Origin: Candidatus Giovannonibacteria bacterium RIFCSPHIGHO2_12_FULL_44_22
GTDB lineage: Bacteria > Patescibacteriota > Minisyncoccia > UBA11713 > 2-01-FULL-45-33
Reading direction: 5' to 3'
NCBI GenBank assembly: GCA_001778695.1
Contig: MFHU01000002.1
Coordinates: forward strand, 1-37,710
DNA length: 37,710 bases
In this document: piece after piece, positions 5,906 to 37,555 of the stretch
How positions within the stretch are numbered: position 1 is the stretch's first letter
Layout: each line of letters begins with the position of its first letter
Notes under the pieces: generated by a model
The model's input: only the letters and a program-made list of their open reading frames with translations
The model's database searches: none
What the model was told of the DNA's origin: nothing
Program-made: the position numbers and the translations under genes

Positions 5906-8900
5906 CTATATCTTCCGAATCTCTTCGGCAATGAGAGAGGGCAGGCCGTTGCGGGAGGAATATTTTCCGCGAACGGTGACGAGACCTTCTTCCAAAATAA
6001 ATTGGCCGTAGTCGCGCAGAGTTCGCGGGAAAACTACCGCCTCAATTTCGTCGGTTAAGTCCTGCAATTTTATGAACATCATTGATTCTCCAGTTTTTGT
6101 GACTATTCTTTTGGTTTGGGTGATGATGGCCGGAAGCGTAACCGAAGACGCCATTTTTTTTATTTTAATTTGCTTGATTGTGGTCGCGTTTTTGTTCTGT
6201 CCGCCAAAGGCGGATCCGCCTTTGGCGGAGAATTGCTCTAGTGGATGTCCCGAAACGTAAAGTCCCATTAGCTCTTTTTCCCAGGAAAGTTTTTCGGCCA
6301 AAGTCGCCGGCATGACTTTATCCAGCCGCAAAGTTGGCACAGATGAACTATCCGCCATCATGCTGAAAAGCGATGATTGATTTTGGGATTTAGTATGATG
6401 CGAGGAATGGGCGTATTCTAAAATGCGGTCCATGTTTTTTAACGTTTCGTTTCTTTCCCCAAATTCGTCCAAAGCGCCGGCTTTGGCTAAGGATTCAATT
6501 GACCTTTTATTGAGATCTTTGGACTGGACGCGTTCCAAAAAATCTGCCAAGGATTTATATGGGCCGTTTTTCCGGCGCTCTTCGATTATCGCTTCCACTA
6601 TATTTTCTCCCACGTTTTTTATTGAAGAAAGTCCGAAACGAATTTCCCCGCCTAGACTCGCGCTAGGCGAGGCTGGCTTTTTATCCCCCTCTGGTATTGA
6701 AAAAATTTTGTCGCTTTGGTTTATGGTGGGCGGAAGCACGGAAATCTCCGAGCTTTTACATTCTTTTATTAGGTAAGCGATGCGTTCCGTGTCTTTTTTG
6801 TCGGAGTTGAGAAGTGAAGTCATAAATTCAATCGTATAATGATATTTTAAATAAGCGGTCTGGAAACTTAACATGGCGTAGGAAGCCGCGTGCGACCGGT
6901 TAAACCCGTATCTGGAAAAAGGCTCCAAAAGGTCGCCCAATTTTTCGGCGATGCTTTTTTGGATTTTATTGGTTATCATTTTGCTTACGAATTTTTCTTT
7001 TTGCTCTTCCAGCAGTTTTCTTATTTTTTTGCCGATGGCCTTTCTTAAAATATCGGCTTCGGCCATAGTGAACCCCGCCAGATCCCTAGCTATCTGCATC
7101 AGCTGTTCTTGATAAACCGCGATGCCGTAAGTATTTTTTAAAATCGGCTCAAGCTTGGGATGGGTGTATTCAACTTTTTCTTTGCCGTGTTTTCTGGCTA
7201 TGAAAGAGGGAATCAGCTCCATCGGCCCCGGCCTAAAAAGCGCTACCATGGCGATAATATCTTCAATATTTGTCGGCCCCAGCTCTTTTAAAAATCTAGT
7301 CATACCAGCGCCTTCCAATTGAAATACACCTACGGTTTTCCCTTCGCCCAGCATTTTATAGGGAGCGGGATCTTCCAAATTTAAATTTTGCACGTCAATA
7401 TCCACGCCGTGCCGAGCTTTTACCAATTTCAATGTGTCTTCAATAGTGCTTAAATTTTTCAAACCCAAAAAATCCATTTTCAAAAGCCCCAAATCCATAA
7501 TGGCGTGCATATCGTATTGCGTGACGACTGCTTCCTGCCGCGCTTCAGAGCGCCCTTCTTCGCCTCCTCTTATGGCCGCGCGCTGCAGAGGCACGATTTC
7601 CGAAAGCGGTTCTTTAGTAATCACGACTCCAGAAGCGTGCACCGAGGCGTGCCGCGCCACTCCTTCCAATTTTATCGCGGCTTCAAGCATCCGCTTGGCA
7701 TCGGGATTGGTCCCGGAAATATTTTTAAGTTCCGGCACATTTTTCAAACATTGAGCCAAGTAGCCCTCTTTTTCATTTTGGTTTGGGTTGAAAGGTATCA
7801 TTTTCGCGACTTGGTCAGCTAGCGCCAAGCTTATTCCCAGCGCACGGCCCGCGTCTCTTATTGCGGCGCGTGCGGCCATGGTTCCAAAAGTTATAATTTG
7901 GGCCACGCGGTCCCTACCGTATTTTTGGGCGACGTATTCAATAACTTCGTCCCGGCGGGTATCGGCGAAATCCAAATCAATATCGGGGGGCTCCACGCGT
8001 TCGGGGTTTAAAAATCTTTCAAAAATCAAATTATATTTGATCGGGTCAACGCTGGTTATTTCAAGCACATAAGAAATCAACGAACCAGCGGCGGAACCTC
8101 GGCCTGGGCCCACCACGATTTTATTTGTTTTTGCCCAGTTGACGAAATCCCAAACCACCAAAAAATATTCAACAAACCCGGTTTTTTCTATGACGGAAAG
8201 TTCATATTCCAGCCGTTTTTTTATTTCCGGATCAATTTTTTTACCGTATCTTTTTTCCAAACCTTCTTGGCAAAGTTTTTTCAGATAAGAAAGAGCTGTC
8301 TCGCCATCGGGCGCGTTGAAATGCGGCAGTTGGATTTTATCGAGCTCTATTTTTAGATCGCAGGCTTCGGCGACGCGCAAAGTGTTGGAAATTGCTTCAG
8401 GCATATCTTTAAAAAGTTCCCGCATTTCATCCGGGCTTCTTAAGGAATAATCGTCGTCTTTCATGGTTAGGCGATCTTCGTCATCAAGCCGGGTGTTGGT
8501 TTGTACCGCCAAAAGCACATCATGCGCCCCCGCGTCTTCTTTATTTAAATAATGAATGTCTTGGGTCGCGACCAATGGGGCGTTAAATTTTTTGGCAAAA
8601 TTTATAAGATGCTTTACCAAAAAATCATAATTGGGCACATTGGGGTGCGAGCCGATTTCTATGAAAAAATTTTCTTCCCCGAAAATATTTTGGTATTCAC
8701 GAAGCAACTTTTCCGCTTTTTCTTCGTCATCATTTAAAAGCGCGCGAGGGATTTCGCCTGACATGCATCCAGAAAGCGCGATCAGCCCCGCCGAATGTTT
8801 TTTCAGCAAATTTTTGTCTACCCTGGGCTTATAATAAAAACCTTCCAGATGCGAGACCGTGACAAGGCGCACCAAATTTTTATATCCTTCCAAATCTTTG

Positions 8901-10971: not shown

Positions 10972-11907
10972 ATGGCCAACAGGCACCTTTCCAGATCAAT
11001 AGCGATGCAAGCCCTCTTTGAATGGGATTTTTATGGTGGCCTGCCCGACGGCAAGGCGGGCAAAGAAAAAATAAAAGCGATTTTGGATCGAGATCTCGGA
11101 GAATTCGGGCCGGGGTTGCGTGACGAAGGTTTCGCCAAAAAATTGGTTGAGGGAGTTGCCAAGCATGAAAAAGAAATTGACGATATTATTGAAAAAGCCG
11201 CACCCGAATGGCCTATTCCGCAAATCGCGCCGGTTGATAGAAACGTGCTCCGCATCGGGCTTTTTGAACTTCTTTTTGGCGACCAAAAAGAAGTTCCGCC
11301 CAAAGTTGCCATCAATGAAGCGATTGAAATCGCCAAAACTTTCGGAGGAGATTCATCCGGCCGTTTTGTAAACGGAGTTTTGGGAACGATTTACCGTGAA
11401 TTGGGCGAGCCAGGCAAAGACGATACGGGCAAGCAAAAATACGAACTGGATTTGGAAAAACTTCCCAAAGAAGATTTAGTGGGTGCGGTGGTTATCAGAA
11501 AAGAACCTGCCCGACGGCAAGGCGGAAAGAATGAAATACTTTTTGCTTTAGTACACGACGTTTTTGGTTACTGGACTTTTTCCAAGGGGCATCTTCAAAA
11601 AGGCGAAGAGTTGGAAAAAGGAGCTCGGCGGAAAGTGAAAGAAGAGCTTGATATTAAAAACTTGGATATTTTAAAAAAAATCGGTGGAAACGAATACATC
11701 GCTTCTGACCCGGAAACCGGACCGACTAGGCGTCGTGTCAATTATTTTTTAGCCGAGACTAAAGAAAAAGAATTAAAACTTGAGAGTTCCGGCGGTTTGG
11801 ATGACGCCAAGTGGTTCACGTTGGACGAAGTTAGGAGCCTTAAAATGTATTCAGACATAAAACCGATTTTGGAAAACGCTCTTGCCGAATTAAATCTTAA
11901 ATTATAA
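10972..11907 (+). CDS. nusB: NusB antitermination factor fused to a C-terminal Nudix hydrolase domain
   Basis: N-terminus MANRHLSRSIAMQALFEWDF...IAPVDRNVLRIGLFELLF...AINEAIEIAKTFGGDSSGRFVNGVLG (NusB); C-terminus GHLQKGEELEKGARRKVKEELDI (Nudix box-like). Confidence 0.92.
   Translation: MANRHLSRSIAMQALFEWDFYGGLPDGKAGKEKIKAILDRDLGEFGPGLRDEGFAKKLVEGVAKHEKEIDDIIEKAAPEWPIPQIAPVDRNVLRIGLFELLFGDQKEVPPKVAINEAIEIAKTFGGDSSGRFVNGVLGTIYRELGEPGKDDTGKQKYELDLEKLPKEDLVGAVVIRKEPARRQGGKNEILFALVHDVFGYWTFSKGHLQKGEELEKGARRKVKEELDIKNLDILKKIGGNEYIASDPETGPTRRRVNYFLAETKEKELKLESSGGLDDAKWFTLDEVRSLKMYSDIKPILENALAELNLKL
11040..11059 (+). repeat. 20-bp repeat CCTGCCCGACGGCAAGGCGG, copy 1 (NusB domain)
   Basis: Exact match to 11506-11525; read in frame as LPDGKAG. 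Confidence 0.97.
11506..11525 (+). repeat. 20-bp repeat CCTGCCCGACGGCAAGGCGG, copy 2 (Nudix domain)
   Basis: Exact match to 11040-11059 but read in a different frame, PARRQGG. Confidence 0.97.
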
Positions 11908-11909
11908 AA

Positions 11910-12623
11910 ATGATAGATTTAAAAGCATTTGAAAAAATTTTAGGAGTAACATTTAAAGATCGGGCGCTTTTAACGCAAGCTCTAACTCACCGATCTTATA
12001 TAAATGAAAACTTCGCGATGCCTGGAGGTCCCACCTCATCGGCGGGTAAGCACAACGAGCGATTGGAATTTCTGGGAGACGCCGTATTGGAGTTGGCAAT
12101 CACTGAATATATTTACGAAAAATTTCCGGCGAGTCCGGAAGGCGAGCTTACCAGCCTGCGGGCTTCTTTGGTTAACGCTAATATGCTGGGGGCGGTGGCG
12201 GCGGAACTGGATTTCAATAATTTCTTATTGCTTTCTCGTGGCGAGGCTAGAGATGTAGGCAGGGCGCGCCAGTATATTTTGGCCAACACGTACGAAGCCG
12301 TGATAGGGGCGATTTATTTGGATCAGGGTTACGGTCCGGCGCGTGATTTTATTATTAGAATTCTCGCGCCTAAGATTTCAGAAATTTTAGAAAAAAAACT
12401 TTACAGAGACGCTAAAAGTTTATTTCAGGAAGAGGCCCAGGATAGGGCAAGTATTACCCCGACCTACGAGGTATCAAAAGAATGGGGCCCTGACCATGAT
12501 AAACATTTTGTTGTGGGAGTTTATTTAGGGAAAGATTTAGTGGCCGAAGGGGAGGGGCCGTCTAAACAAGAAGCCCAACAGCAAGCCGCCGAAGCCGCTC
12601 TTAAAATAAAAAACTGGGAATAA
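11910..12623 (+). CDS. rnc: Ribonuclease III
   Basis: ALTHRSYINEN, HNERLEFLGDAVLELAITEYIY, ANTYEAVIGAIYLDQG, C-terminal dsRBD. Confidence 0.96.
   Translation: MIDLKAFEKILGVTFKDRALLTQALTHRSYINENFAMPGGPTSSAGKHNERLEFLGDAVLELAITEYIYEKFPASPEGELTSLRASLVNANMLGAVAAELDFNNFLLLSRGEARDVGRARQYILANTYEAVIGAIYLDQGYGPARDFIIRILAPKISEILEKKLYRDAKSLFQEEAQDRASITPTYEVSKEWGPDHDKHFVVGVYLGKDLVAEGEGPSKQEAQQQAAEAALKIKNWE
12025..12037. repeat. Inverted repeat GAGGT-ccc-ACCTC inside rnc
   Basis: Lies in the extra segment MPGGPTSSAGK before HNERLEFLGDAV. Confidence 0.6.
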
Positions 12624-16849: not shown

Positions 16850-18997
16850 TTATTTTTTTAATTTTGACTCGACCTTTTTTAATAATACCGCGTTTGCGGC
16901 AACAATAATAGAAGAAGCGGACATTAAGAGAGCCGAAATTTCAGGTCGCAAGAACCAACCGAGCGAATTATAAAAAACTCCCGCCGCGACTGGAATCGCG
17001 AGCAGATTATAAATCGCCGCCCAGAAAAGATTTTGTTTCATTTTTGTGACTGTTGCTTTGCTTAAGCGGATAGCGGCGACGATGTCGTATGGGTCCGATT
17101 TCATTAAAACAATATTTCCGGTTTCAATGGCAACGTCGGTTCCCGCGCCAATCGCTATGCCGATATCCGACTGGGCCAAAGCCGGCGCGTCATTTATTCC
17201 GTCGCCGACCATGGCTACGAATTTTCCTTCGTCCTGCAGTTTTTTTACATATTTTGCTTTATCTGCCGGAAGCACTTCGGCAAATACACGATCAATTCCA
17301 AGATCTTTTCCAATGCCTTCAGCAACTTTTATGTGGTCGCCCGTAATCATTACTACTTCCATGCCTAGATTTTTAAGCGCCAAAATGGTTTTTTTGGAAT
17401 TTGCTCTAGCGGGATCTGCGGCGGCGACAACGCCGGCGAAAATTCCACCGACCGCGAGCAAGCTTAAAGTTTTTCCTTCTCCGGCGAGCCGATCAAGGGC
17501 GCCGCGCCCGAGCTCGGTAGAGACGCCGTTATCCCGAAGTAGTTTTTCTGTTCCGGCTAAAATTATTTTACCGCTAATCCGTGCTTTAAGTCCGTGGCCA
17601 GCGAGCGACTCAAAATTTTCCATGGGTTTTAGCGGCAAAGCGCCGCGTTTTTCAGTTTCTTCAAAAATAGCTTTCGCAAGCGGATGATTAGACCCCGCCT
17701 CCAGACTCGCTTCATAACGCAAAATTTCATGTTCGCTAAAATTATTAAAAGCAACAACATCGGCAACCTTCGGCTTTCCGAGGGTTAACGTGCCGGTTTT
17801 GTCTAAAATAATTGCGTTGATTCTTGAAGTATTCTCCAAGGTTGCTGCGTCTTTAATTAAAATATTATGCTTTGCGCCGATGCCCGTGCCAACGGCAACC
17901 GCGGTGGGGGTCGCGAGGCCAAGCGCATCAGGGCAGGCGATTACAACCGCCGATATCGCGAAAGTCAGCGCGGTCAAAAGCGTCGCGCCCACAAGAAAAT
18001 ACCAGCCCAAAAACGCCGCGACTCCGGATCCGACCGCAATTATAACGAGCCAGCCGGCGGCCTTGTCGGCTATGCGCTGGCCGGGCGCTTTGGAATTTTG
18101 GGCAATTTCCACCATTTTTATGATTTGCGCGAGAACGGTTTCGGACCCCACTTGAGTGGTTTTGAATGCAACCCTGCCGGTTTGGTTTACCGAACCGCCG
18201 ATGACTTTATCGCCGATTTTTTTTGCCACAGGGATTGATTCGCCGGTGACAAGCGATTCATCAATTGAGGATTCTCCTTCAATAATAATTCCGTCCACAG
18301 GAACTTTATCTCCTGGACGCAACACGACAATATCATCATGAATAATTTCAGCGCTGGGAATTACGATTTCTTTTTCATTGCGGATCACTTTCGCCAGCGG
18401 CGGCACGAGGTCAAATAGCGCGCGCAGCGCGTCGGAAGTGCCCCGACGCGACTTCATCTCCATCCAGTGGCCGAATAAAACAAAAGTTACCAAAAGCGCG
18501 GCCGCTTCGTAGAAAGTCTCACCCCCTCCAATCGCGGTGAGCAAAACGCTGAAAAGATACGCCGCAAGCACGCCGGTGGCGATTAAAACCGACATATTTA
18601 ATTTGCGGGCTTTGAGCGAATGATAAGTGCCGGTGATAAAAATGGAGCCGGTCCAGAACACGATGGGCGTTGTGAGAATCAAAAGCAGCCAATTTGCGGG
18701 AAGAGGAGTCGGCAGAGTAAGCTTTCCGCCAAAGGCGGATCCGCCTATGGCGGAGAAAACACTAATGCCAAGCGGAGAGTAAAGCACAATCGGAATTGAC
18801 AGAAGAAACGAAACCCAAAATCTGCGGCGCATATCTTGCTCCATATGCTTCGCCATTTGCGGGTTGGTCATCACAGTTTTATGATTTTTGTGATTCTGCT
18901 TTTCTTCTTTTAATATAAGTGTCATGCCGCAGCCCGGACAGTTTCCGGGCTCATTTTTAACAACCTCCGGATGCATCGGGCAGGTATAAAGATTCAT
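16850..18997 (-). CDS. Heavy-metal (copper-type) P1B ATPase with N-terminal metal-binding YTCPMHPEV domain and CPD transmembrane motif
   Basis: YTCPMHPEVVKNEPGNCPGCGM, LVTGESIPV, VIACPDALGLATPTAV, ILDKTGTLT, MVGDGINDAPAL. Confidence 0.95.
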   Translation of the reverse strand: MNLYTCPMHPEVVKNEPGNCPGCGMTLILKEEKQNHKNHKTVMTNPQMAKHMEQDMRRRFWVSFLLSIPIVLYSPLGISVFSAIGGSAFGGKLTLPTPLPANWLLLILTTPIVFWTGSIFITGTYHSLKARKLNMSVLIATGVLAAYLFSVLLTAIGGGETFYEAAALLVTFVLFGHWMEMKSRRGTSDALRALFDLVPPLAKVIRNEKEIVIPSAEIIHDDIVVLRPGDKVPVDGIIIEGESSIDESLVTGESIPVAKKIGDKVIGGSVNQTGRVAFKTTQVGSETVLAQIIKMVEIAQNSKAPGQRIADKAAGWLVIIAVGSGVAAFLGWYFLVGATLLTALTFAISAVVIACPDALGLATPTAVAVGTGIGAKHNILIKDAATLENTSRINAIILDKTGTLTLGKPKVADVVAFNNFSEHEILRYEASLEAGSNHPLAKAIFEETEKRGALPLKPMENFESLAGHGLKARISGKIILAGTEKLLRDNGVSTELGRGALDRLAGEGKTLSLLAVGGIFAGVVAAADPARANSKKTILALKNLGMEVVMITGDHIKVAEGIGKDLGIDRVFAEVLPADKAKYVKKLQDEGKFVAMVGDGINDAPALAQSDIGIAIGAGTDVAIETGNIVLMKSDPYDIVAAIRLSKATVTKMKQNLFWAAIYNLLAIPVAAGVFYNSLGWFLRPEISALLMSASSIIVAANAVLLKKVESKLKK
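18725..18754. repeat. 30-bp near-perfect palindrome TCCGCCAAAGGCGGATCCGCCTATGGCGGA inside the P1B ATPase gene
   Basis: 29/30 identical to the palindrome at 6200-6229; encodes SAIGGSAFGG. Confidence 0.97.
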
Positions 18998-33150: not shown

Positions 33151-33568
33151 TATAAAATATTTTGAAGCGGTGGGCCGCCGGAAAACTTCTGTGGCGCGGG
33201 TGAGGCTATTTGAGGAGAGTTTGCCTGTCGGAAAGGTAGGAACTTCTTCGCCCCAAATTTCAGTAAACGACAAGCCGCACACGATTTATTTTCCCACCGC
33301 TCCGCTTAAAAAAATCGCGGAAGAAGCTTTGAAAGCCGCGCATATTGAAGGAAATTACAGAGTTTCGGCGAAACTTTCGGGCGGTGGAATTCATTCGCAG
33401 GCCGAAGCGCTCCGGCACGGCATTTCGCGGGTGATTTTGAAAATCAATCCCGAAGAAAGAAAATCATTAAAACAATTGGGCTTTTTAAAGCGCGACCCCA
33501 GAATGAAGGAAAGGCGTAAATTCGGCCTCAAAAAAGCCCGCAAAGCCCCACAATGGGCGAAGAGATAG
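33134..33568 (+). CDS. rpsI: Ribosomal protein uS9
   Basis: YFEAVGRRKTSVARVRLF; AEALRHGISRVIL; RRKFGLKKARKAPQWAKR; 17-nt overlap with rplM. Confidence 0.96.
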   Translation: MAKINNIKYFEAVGRRKTSVARVRLFEESLPVGKVGTSSPQISVNDKPHTIYFPTAPLKKIAEEALKAAHIEGNYRVSAKLSGGGIHSQAEALRHGISRVILKINPEERKSLKQLGFLKRDPRMKERRKFGLKKARKAPQWAKR

Positions 33569-35683: not shown

Positions 35684-37555
35684 ATGGCAAAAATTTTAGG
35701 AATAGACTTGGGGACGACCAACTCGGCGATGGCGATTGTGGAAGGAGGAGTTCCAAAAATATTGGAAAATACGGAGGGCGCGCGCACCACGCCTTCAATG
35801 GTTGCGTTTTCAAAGACAGGCGAGCGCTTGGTCGGTCTTTTGGCAAAAAGACAGGCCGTGACCAACCCCAAAAACACAATTTTTTCCGTGAAGCGCCTGA
35901 TCGGCCGAAAATTTTCGGATATCGAAGTAAAGCGCGATAAAGCTTTGCTTCCCTACGAAATAAAAGAATCGGCAAATGGCGGAGTGGACGTAAAAATAAA
36001 CGAAAAATGGTACCGGCCGGAAGAAATTTCCGCCATGATTTTGACAAAATTAAAAACAGACGCCGAAGCCAAGCTGGGAGAAAAAATTGAAGAAGCCATC
36101 ATTACCGTGCCGGCTTATTTTGACGATGCCCAAAGGCAGGCCACCAAAGCTGCCGGTGAGATCGCCGGTTTCTCCGTGCGCAGGATTTTAAACGAGCCGA
36201 CTGCCGCGGCTTTGGCTTACGGTTTGAATAAAAAGAAAAATGAAAAAATAGTCGTCTATGACTACGGCGGAGGGACTTTTGACCTTTCGGTTTTGGAAAT
36301 CGGGGACGACACGATTGAAGTCCGCGCCACCGGAGGCGATACCCATTTAGGCGGGGACGATTTTGACCAAAAAATTATCCAATATATCGCCGTGGAATTT
36401 AAAAAAGAATCGGGCGTTGACGTAACCCGCGATGTTTTGGCGCTCCAGCGCCTGAAAGAGACGGCCGAAAAAGCCAAGCACGAACTTTCCACTACGGTTG
36501 AAACAGAAATAAATATTCCTTTCATCACCTCCGATGCTTCCGGCCCGCGGCATCTTTTAATGAAATTTACCCGCGCCAAATTGGAGGAACTTGTCGGCGA
36601 TTATTTGAACAGGTCTTTTGAGATTACTAAAAAAGTTGTTGATGATTCTGGTTTTAAAATGCAGGAAATTGACGAAATAGTTTTGGTTGGGGGGCAAACC
36701 AGAATGCCCGCTATTGTTGAGGGCATTAAAAAGCTTTTCGGAAAGGAACCCAACCGCACCATCAATCCAGATGAAGTCGTGGCGCTGGGCGCGGCGGTGC
36801 AAGGCGGGATTTTGCAGGGCGACGTGAAAGATGTTTTGCTTTTGGACGTCACTCCGCTTTCTTTGGGCATTGAAACCTTGGGAGGCGTGATGACAAAAAT
36901 TATTGAAAAAAATACGACCGTGCCGGTAGCGCGCGCGCAGGTTTTTTCAACCGCCGCTGACAACCAAACTTCCGTGGAAATTCATGTTTTGCAGGGCGAG
37001 CGTGAAATGGCGAGAGACAATAAAACTTTGGGCAGATTTATTTTGGACGGCATTCCGCCTTCTCCGCGGGGATTGCCGCAGGTTGAGGTCAGTTTTGACA
37101 TTGACGCCAACGGAATTTTATCCGTGAAAGCTAAAGACAAAGCGACGAATAAAGAACAATCCATCCGCATTGAGGCTTCCACGGGGCTTTCCAAAGATGA
37201 AATTGAAAAAATGAAACGCGACGCGGAACTTCACGCCGAAGACGATAAAAAGAAAAAAGAATTGGTTGAGGCCAAAAACCGCGCGGATGCTTTGGTTTAT
37301 ACGGCGGAGAAATCTTTGCGGGATGCCGGGGATAAAGTTGAGCAGCCCATTAAAGACGAAGTAAATCAAAAAATAGAGGCGCTGAAAAAACTGAAAGACG
37401 CCGAAGATATATCTGAAATTAAAAACGCCGAAACCGCTTTGGCGCAGGCATTATCCAAAATCGGCGAGGCGATGTATAAAAAGCCGCCCGAAGACGATAA
37501 AGGGCCGGATGTAAAAGATACAGATTTTAAAGATGTTGATGGTGATAAGAAATAA
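35684..37555 (+). CDS. dnaK: Chaperone DnaK
   Basis: [70 protein letters not shown]. Confidence 0.98.

Follow-up and report, generated by a model that had tools for sequence, protein, structure and literature searches.

Two repeats within a single nusB-Nudix gene are very probably recent insertions of a dispersed, non-autonomous 21-bp hairpin element at loop-encoding sites. The repeated sequence CCTGCCCGACGGCAAGGCGG represents one variant of this hairpin family, which is designated here family A (CCTGCC-N4-GGCA-AGGCRGG). Our confidence covers the insertion of a dispersed hairpin element, the identity of the enzyme being a separate matter. The window, that is, the whole analyzed stretch of 37,710 nucleotides, is contig C2 of the 643-kb source genome (G000). 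The initial annotation had described two exact copies of CCTGCCCGACGGCAAGGCGG read in different frames, which was reproduced here: both lie on the + strand of one nusB-Nudix CDS, at 11040–11059 and 11506–11525, and start at codon positions 3 and 1, respectively, counted from the ATG at 10972. Copy 1 is translated into (G)LPDGKAG, and copy 2 into PARRQGG. The annotated length of 20 bp holds for the exact match but not for the unit, which is 21 bp, copy 1 ending with GGG and copy 2 with GGA. A genome-wide count of the 20-mer gave these two copies as the only exact ones in G000, and one further copy with 2 mismatches was located at C9:36938. Dinucleotide shuffles of the window gave 0 matches even when 3 mismatches were allowed, which excludes chance for this pair. 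The features of the gene are as follows.

10972..11907, + strand: NusB-Nudix fusion gene (311 aa), host of both inserts
11040..11060, + strand: family A copy 1, CCTGCCCGACGGCAAGGCGGG, sense, encoding LPDGKAG, preceded by the purine G
11042..11053, + strand: inner stem-loop of copy 1, TGCC-CGAC-GGCA, the stem of which covaries in 25 copies
11506..11526, + strand: family A copy 2, CCTGCCCGACGGCAAGGCGGA, sense, encoding PARRQGG, preceded by the purine A
11508..11519, + strand: inner stem-loop of copy 2, TGCC-CGAC-GGCA, the stem of which covaries in 25 copies

The ORF containing both copies spans 10954/10972–11907 and encodes a fusion, in which Pfam NusB (aa 7–142) and NUDIX (aa 198–301) were both matched with scores above the cut-off. 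The inserts correspond to aa 24–30 and aa 179–185 of the protein, and both were predicted as coil between secondary-structure elements. In the predicted structure (mean pLDDT 80.7), insert 1 forms a coil of pLDDT <50 between helices 2–21 and 34–45, and insert 2 a coil between strands 166–178 and 188–196. Copy 2, which had been assigned to the Nudix part, is thus located just before the Nudix Pfam match, in the loop following the first predicted strand. A second NusB-Nudix fusion of 65% identity was observed at G000:C17:21437–22324, which is either a paralogue or a contaminating contig (the assembly is listed as 4.93% contaminated).

Orthologues were present in 90 of 93 relatives, and approximately one-third of them are fused to Nudix similarly to that of G000, making the fusion common to about 30 relatives. 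Two orthologues of the same genus are 90% identical and consist of 297 residues versus 311; LPDGKAG and PARRQGG account exactly for the difference of 14 residues. The congeners hence show clean 7-codon gaps exactly at each repeat, although for copy 1 the codon alignment sets the gap at 11041–11061, a one-base ambiguity. Both segments are also absent from about 28 further orthologues, a few of which carry unrelated residues in the first loop. This comparison had been named beforehand as the one that could overturn the insertion reading, if both segments proved to be conserved with diverged DNA; no such conservation was observed, and the reading stands. Since the segments are missing from orthologues as clean 7-aa gaps, the two repeats are supported as DNA-level insertions and not as a duplicated protein motif.

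The same block is dispersed in the genome. Allowing ≤2 mismatches, CCTGCCNNNNGGCAAGGCRGG matched 9 times in G000 and 24 times in its congener G001; the reversed pattern matched once in G000 and not at all in G001. A covariance model gave about 13 and 33 family A matches in the two genomes, respectively. At ≤2 mismatches, all 9 copies of G000 and 22 of the 24 of G001 are located in predicted ORFs, which cover 94% of G000, and the genic copies are oriented sense in 28 cases versus antisense in 3 (p = 5e-6). In a 25-copy alignment, the inner stem TGCC/GGCA exhibited 8 compensatory double-changed cells versus 1.5 when shuffled (0/500), though these do not equal 8 independent events, as the covarying copies descend from subfamilies. 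C-G, T-A, and A-T pairs all occur at one position of this stem. The outer stem formed between 1–7 and 15–21 was also considered as the conserved fold and rejected; because it contains no double changes, the inner stem is preferred. Single-strand DNA folding of the consensus favors pairings other than the inner stem.

The base at −1 is a purine in 32/32 copies of G000 and G001 and in 107 of 116 copies across phyla. Copies outside long ORFs follow a purine too (36/43 in the cross-phylum set), which suggests that this rule reflects how the element inserts and not which codons it forms. No general target-site duplication was detected at family A copies, the sole excess being at 7 bp, which comes from pre-existing 7-bp tandem repeats. 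About 20 of the 116 cross-phylum copies are located at unit boundaries of such repeats, some of them degenerate, in unrelated phyla; an example is gaaattg gaaattg [CCTGCCT GCCGGCA AGGCAGG] gaaattg gaaattc. Three copies in an Omnitrophota genome alternate with gatagcg at a 28-bp spacing. The literature on heptamer repeats contained nothing directly relevant to this 7-bp register.

Dispersal of family A extends across phyla. Covariance-model matches were obtained in 10/10 genomes of the family of the source genome and patchily in its class, where the weak matches are not all certain. Of 380 Patescibacteria genomes, 25 contained the strict pattern, with 50 matches in total, whereas the reversed control had none. 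At least 115 stretches with family A were detected among 84,980 species genomes, compared with approximately 1 expected at equal base frequencies; a few GC-rich matches may be chance. The phyla among the matches listed include Patescibacteria, Bacteroidota, Ignavibacteria, Omnitrophota, Planctomycetota, Nitrospirota, WOR-3, and others, and cultured isolates of Arenibacter, Aequorivita, Marinoscillum, Flagellimonas, and Hyunsoonleella also carry the element. The highest copy numbers, counted with ≤1 mismatch, are those of an Ignavibacteria genome (53) and an Aureispira genome (37). An Ignavibacteria example contains two LPDGKAG-encoding copies 132 bp apart on the presumed coding strand. Separately, two family A copies abutting in inverted orientation, which constitute a 42-bp palindrome, were observed in two viral contigs and one Aureispira genome.

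Insertions elsewhere in the genome were examined by comparing 465 reciprocal-best protein pairs between G000 and G001, for which insert lengths were enriched at 7, 10, and 11 aa. The inserts are mostly GC-rich palindromes of several families, comprising 21 bp (family A), 30 bp (TCCGCCAAAGGCGGATCCGCCTTTGGCGGA), and 33 bp (CCCCCACACCAA...TTGGTGTGGGGG). Among the inserts of 5–14 aa, 52% in G000 and 48% in G001 fold below the 5th percentile of equal-length random coding windows, which is partly an effect of GC content. Several palindromic families account for about half of the 5–14-aa indels between the two genomes. Of ten genomes in the family, G000 alone carries its third family A copy, which lies in a DnaQ-like gene; the same protein carries other family-A-like inserts in a different loop in G002 and G005. 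For dnaK, LPxGKAG occurs at one identical nucleotide position in G001, G006, and G008, which belong to three genera, and the site is empty in G000, G002, G004, and others. This pattern reflects either several separate insertions at one site or an ancestral copy that was later lost precisely. Two further features of the window relate to these comparisons.

37333..37334, + strand: empty dnaK site in the window, occupied in congener G001 and two other genera
33220..33240, + strand: probable degenerate family A copy in another window gene, LPVGKVG; 7-aa gap relative to G001; weak and diverged

Palindromes of other types were also observed in the window. The 30-bp double-hairpin palindromes TCCGCCAAAGGCGGATCCGCC(T/A)(T/A)TGGCGGA are located at 18725–18754 and 6200–6229, the former being a 10-aa in-frame insert, SAIGGSAFGG, relative to G001. 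A 16-aa insert relative to G001 at 2259–2306 consists of two successive hairpins, CCCGCCGTGGCGGG and TCGCTACTAAAGTAGCGA. The RNase III gene contains a low-conservation insert region at 12012–12045 (FAMPGGPTSSAG) that includes GGAGGTCCCACCTC-like palindromic DNA, for which the residues of the congener differ.

The mitochondrial GC clusters and double-hairpin elements of yeasts and fungi are very short, GC-rich inserting hairpins found also in coding sequence; they are organellar and differ from family A in sequence, and serve as a lead only. The DNA uptake sequences of Neisseria and Pasteurellaceae are, similar to family A, short, repeated, and often located in genes, but they are approximately 9–12 bp long and non-palindromic as single units, whereas family A arises as inserted 21-bp blocks. 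Among bacterial elements, intragenic palindromic repeats are known as the RPEs of Rickettsia and as GTAG/CGTC REPs in genes, one case being a gene that carries two insertions (PMC3733652). The Rickettsia elements (including RPE-4 and RPE-6) are in-frame palindromic inserts in many unrelated genes that are tolerated by the protein (PMC3733652), and family A likewise inserts in frame into coding genes whose orthologues are empty. Compared by description and not by sequence, family A differs from RPEs in its length of 21 bp, its occurrence across phyla versus one genus, and in having no known mover. The REP/BIME/REPIN elements with their RAYT (TnpA-REP) are 20–40-bp hairpins with many copies per genome, sometimes inverted dimers, and with intragenic copies recorded (PMC3733652); family A, being a multicopy palindromic unit of 21 bp, falls within this size range. 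It differs from REPs, which are mostly extragenic, in residing mostly inside genes. Neither a GTAG nor a CGTC tag was found at its ends, as the consensus and its flanks conserve only the purine at −1. An exact-string search of open-licence papers detected no paper printing the element, which is not proof that it is undescribed. Family A is best filed with the intragenic palindromic repeats of Rickettsia and REPs, as a variant that is new, unusually short, and widespread.

How such a block might move can be outlined as follows. A trans-acting DNA-processing enzyme would recognize the single-strand hairpin and paste copies 3′ of a purine at many places. As 21 bp, a multiple of three, leave the reading frame intact and the encoded residues (LPxGKAG, PAxRQGG) appear benign, insertions into surface loops would survive selection and others would be purged. 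The sense-strand and frame bias of the copies may be explained in this way, because only the in-frame surface-loop inserts would persist. A REP-like mechanism recognizing the hairpin in single-stranded DNA seems to us the leading candidate, held with slightly less than even confidence. More tentatively, we propose that a single, near-letter-identical 21-bp hairpin moves within genomes and between phyla by an undescribed enzyme, inserts immediately 3′ of a purine and in the register of 7-bp repeats, and keeps furnishing core proteins, such as NusB-Nudix and DnaK, with in-frame loops of 7 residues.

No mobilizing enzyme was found for family A, and an obvious candidate is the resident RAYT (Y1/HUH) transposases, which would make family A their REP. 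Y1 transposases number 2 in G000 and 4–8 in each of its same-family relatives, and several RAYTs have matching palindromes, such as TATTGAAGTCGGACTTCAATA / TATCGAAGTCCGACTTCGATA, on either side, so that REP-RAYT systems are active in these genomes. The RAYT flanks in family f1 bear other palindromes, however, and family A was found at none of the flanks inspected, some loci being unparsable. Outside the window's family, across the rest of the class, Y1 genes and family A are not associated (Spearman 0.13, Fisher p 0.76); G047 contains 23 model matches and 0 Y1, whereas G017 and G048 contain 5 Y1 and 0 matches. The resident RAYTs thus exhibit no link to family A, which also lacks a GTAG/CGTC tag, and we rejected them as its mover on flanks and co-occurrence, a role that we judge improbable. 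As a separate observation, 8 Patescibacteria loci contain RAYT-type Y1 genes with matching palindromes, mostly of 25 bp (such as CACTTGG...CCAAGTG), at either end, which are apparently REPtrons with their own palindrome for each transposase. An alternative without transposition is that family A constitutes a protein-recognition or DNA-uptake-type signal favored by selection or biased uptake. Conservation of the same 21 letters across phyla could reflect selection for a bound sequence, and the purine rule and the 7-bp-repeat register are also in its favor; nevertheless, copies appear as whole 21-bp blocks with empty sites and not through point changes, their sites differ between close relatives, and several unrelated palindromic families behave likewise. 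We regard a signal of this kind as improbable as well.

Local events and artefacts were also weighed. Copy 2 may have been derived from copy 1 by local duplication or template switching within the gene, which is compatible with insertion of a dispersed element for copy 1. The pair being the only exact copies of the CCTGCCCGACGGCAAGGCGG variant in the genome, 466 bp apart, is consistent with this route; the match nevertheless ends sharply at the element ends (20 bp, with unrelated flanks), and blocks with other loop variants are dispersed genome-wide, and we consider such an origin rather unlikely. A duplicated or convergent protein motif, or chance, is refuted by the different frames, the lack of conservation in orthologues, and the 0 shuffle matches, and its probability is practically negligible. 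A sequencing or assembly artefact of a metagenome bin deserves consideration, as G000, with its listed 4.93% contamination, and most other family A hosts are assembled drafts. The element is nevertheless also present in the genomes of isolates cultured by different laboratories, in open frames and with covarying stems, which makes an artefact very unlikely.

Insertion of a dispersed hairpin element into the nusB-Nudix gene remains our preferred reading. It means that core genes of a streamlined genome, from which surplus DNA is usually assumed to be purged, still gain ready-made loops of 7 residues through insertion, and it gives many small protein indels of Patescibacteria a concrete origin. 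As a 21-mer of nearly the same letters occurs in distant phyla, cultured Bacteroidota among them, the question of which mover serves these tiny elements can be tested in the laboratory.
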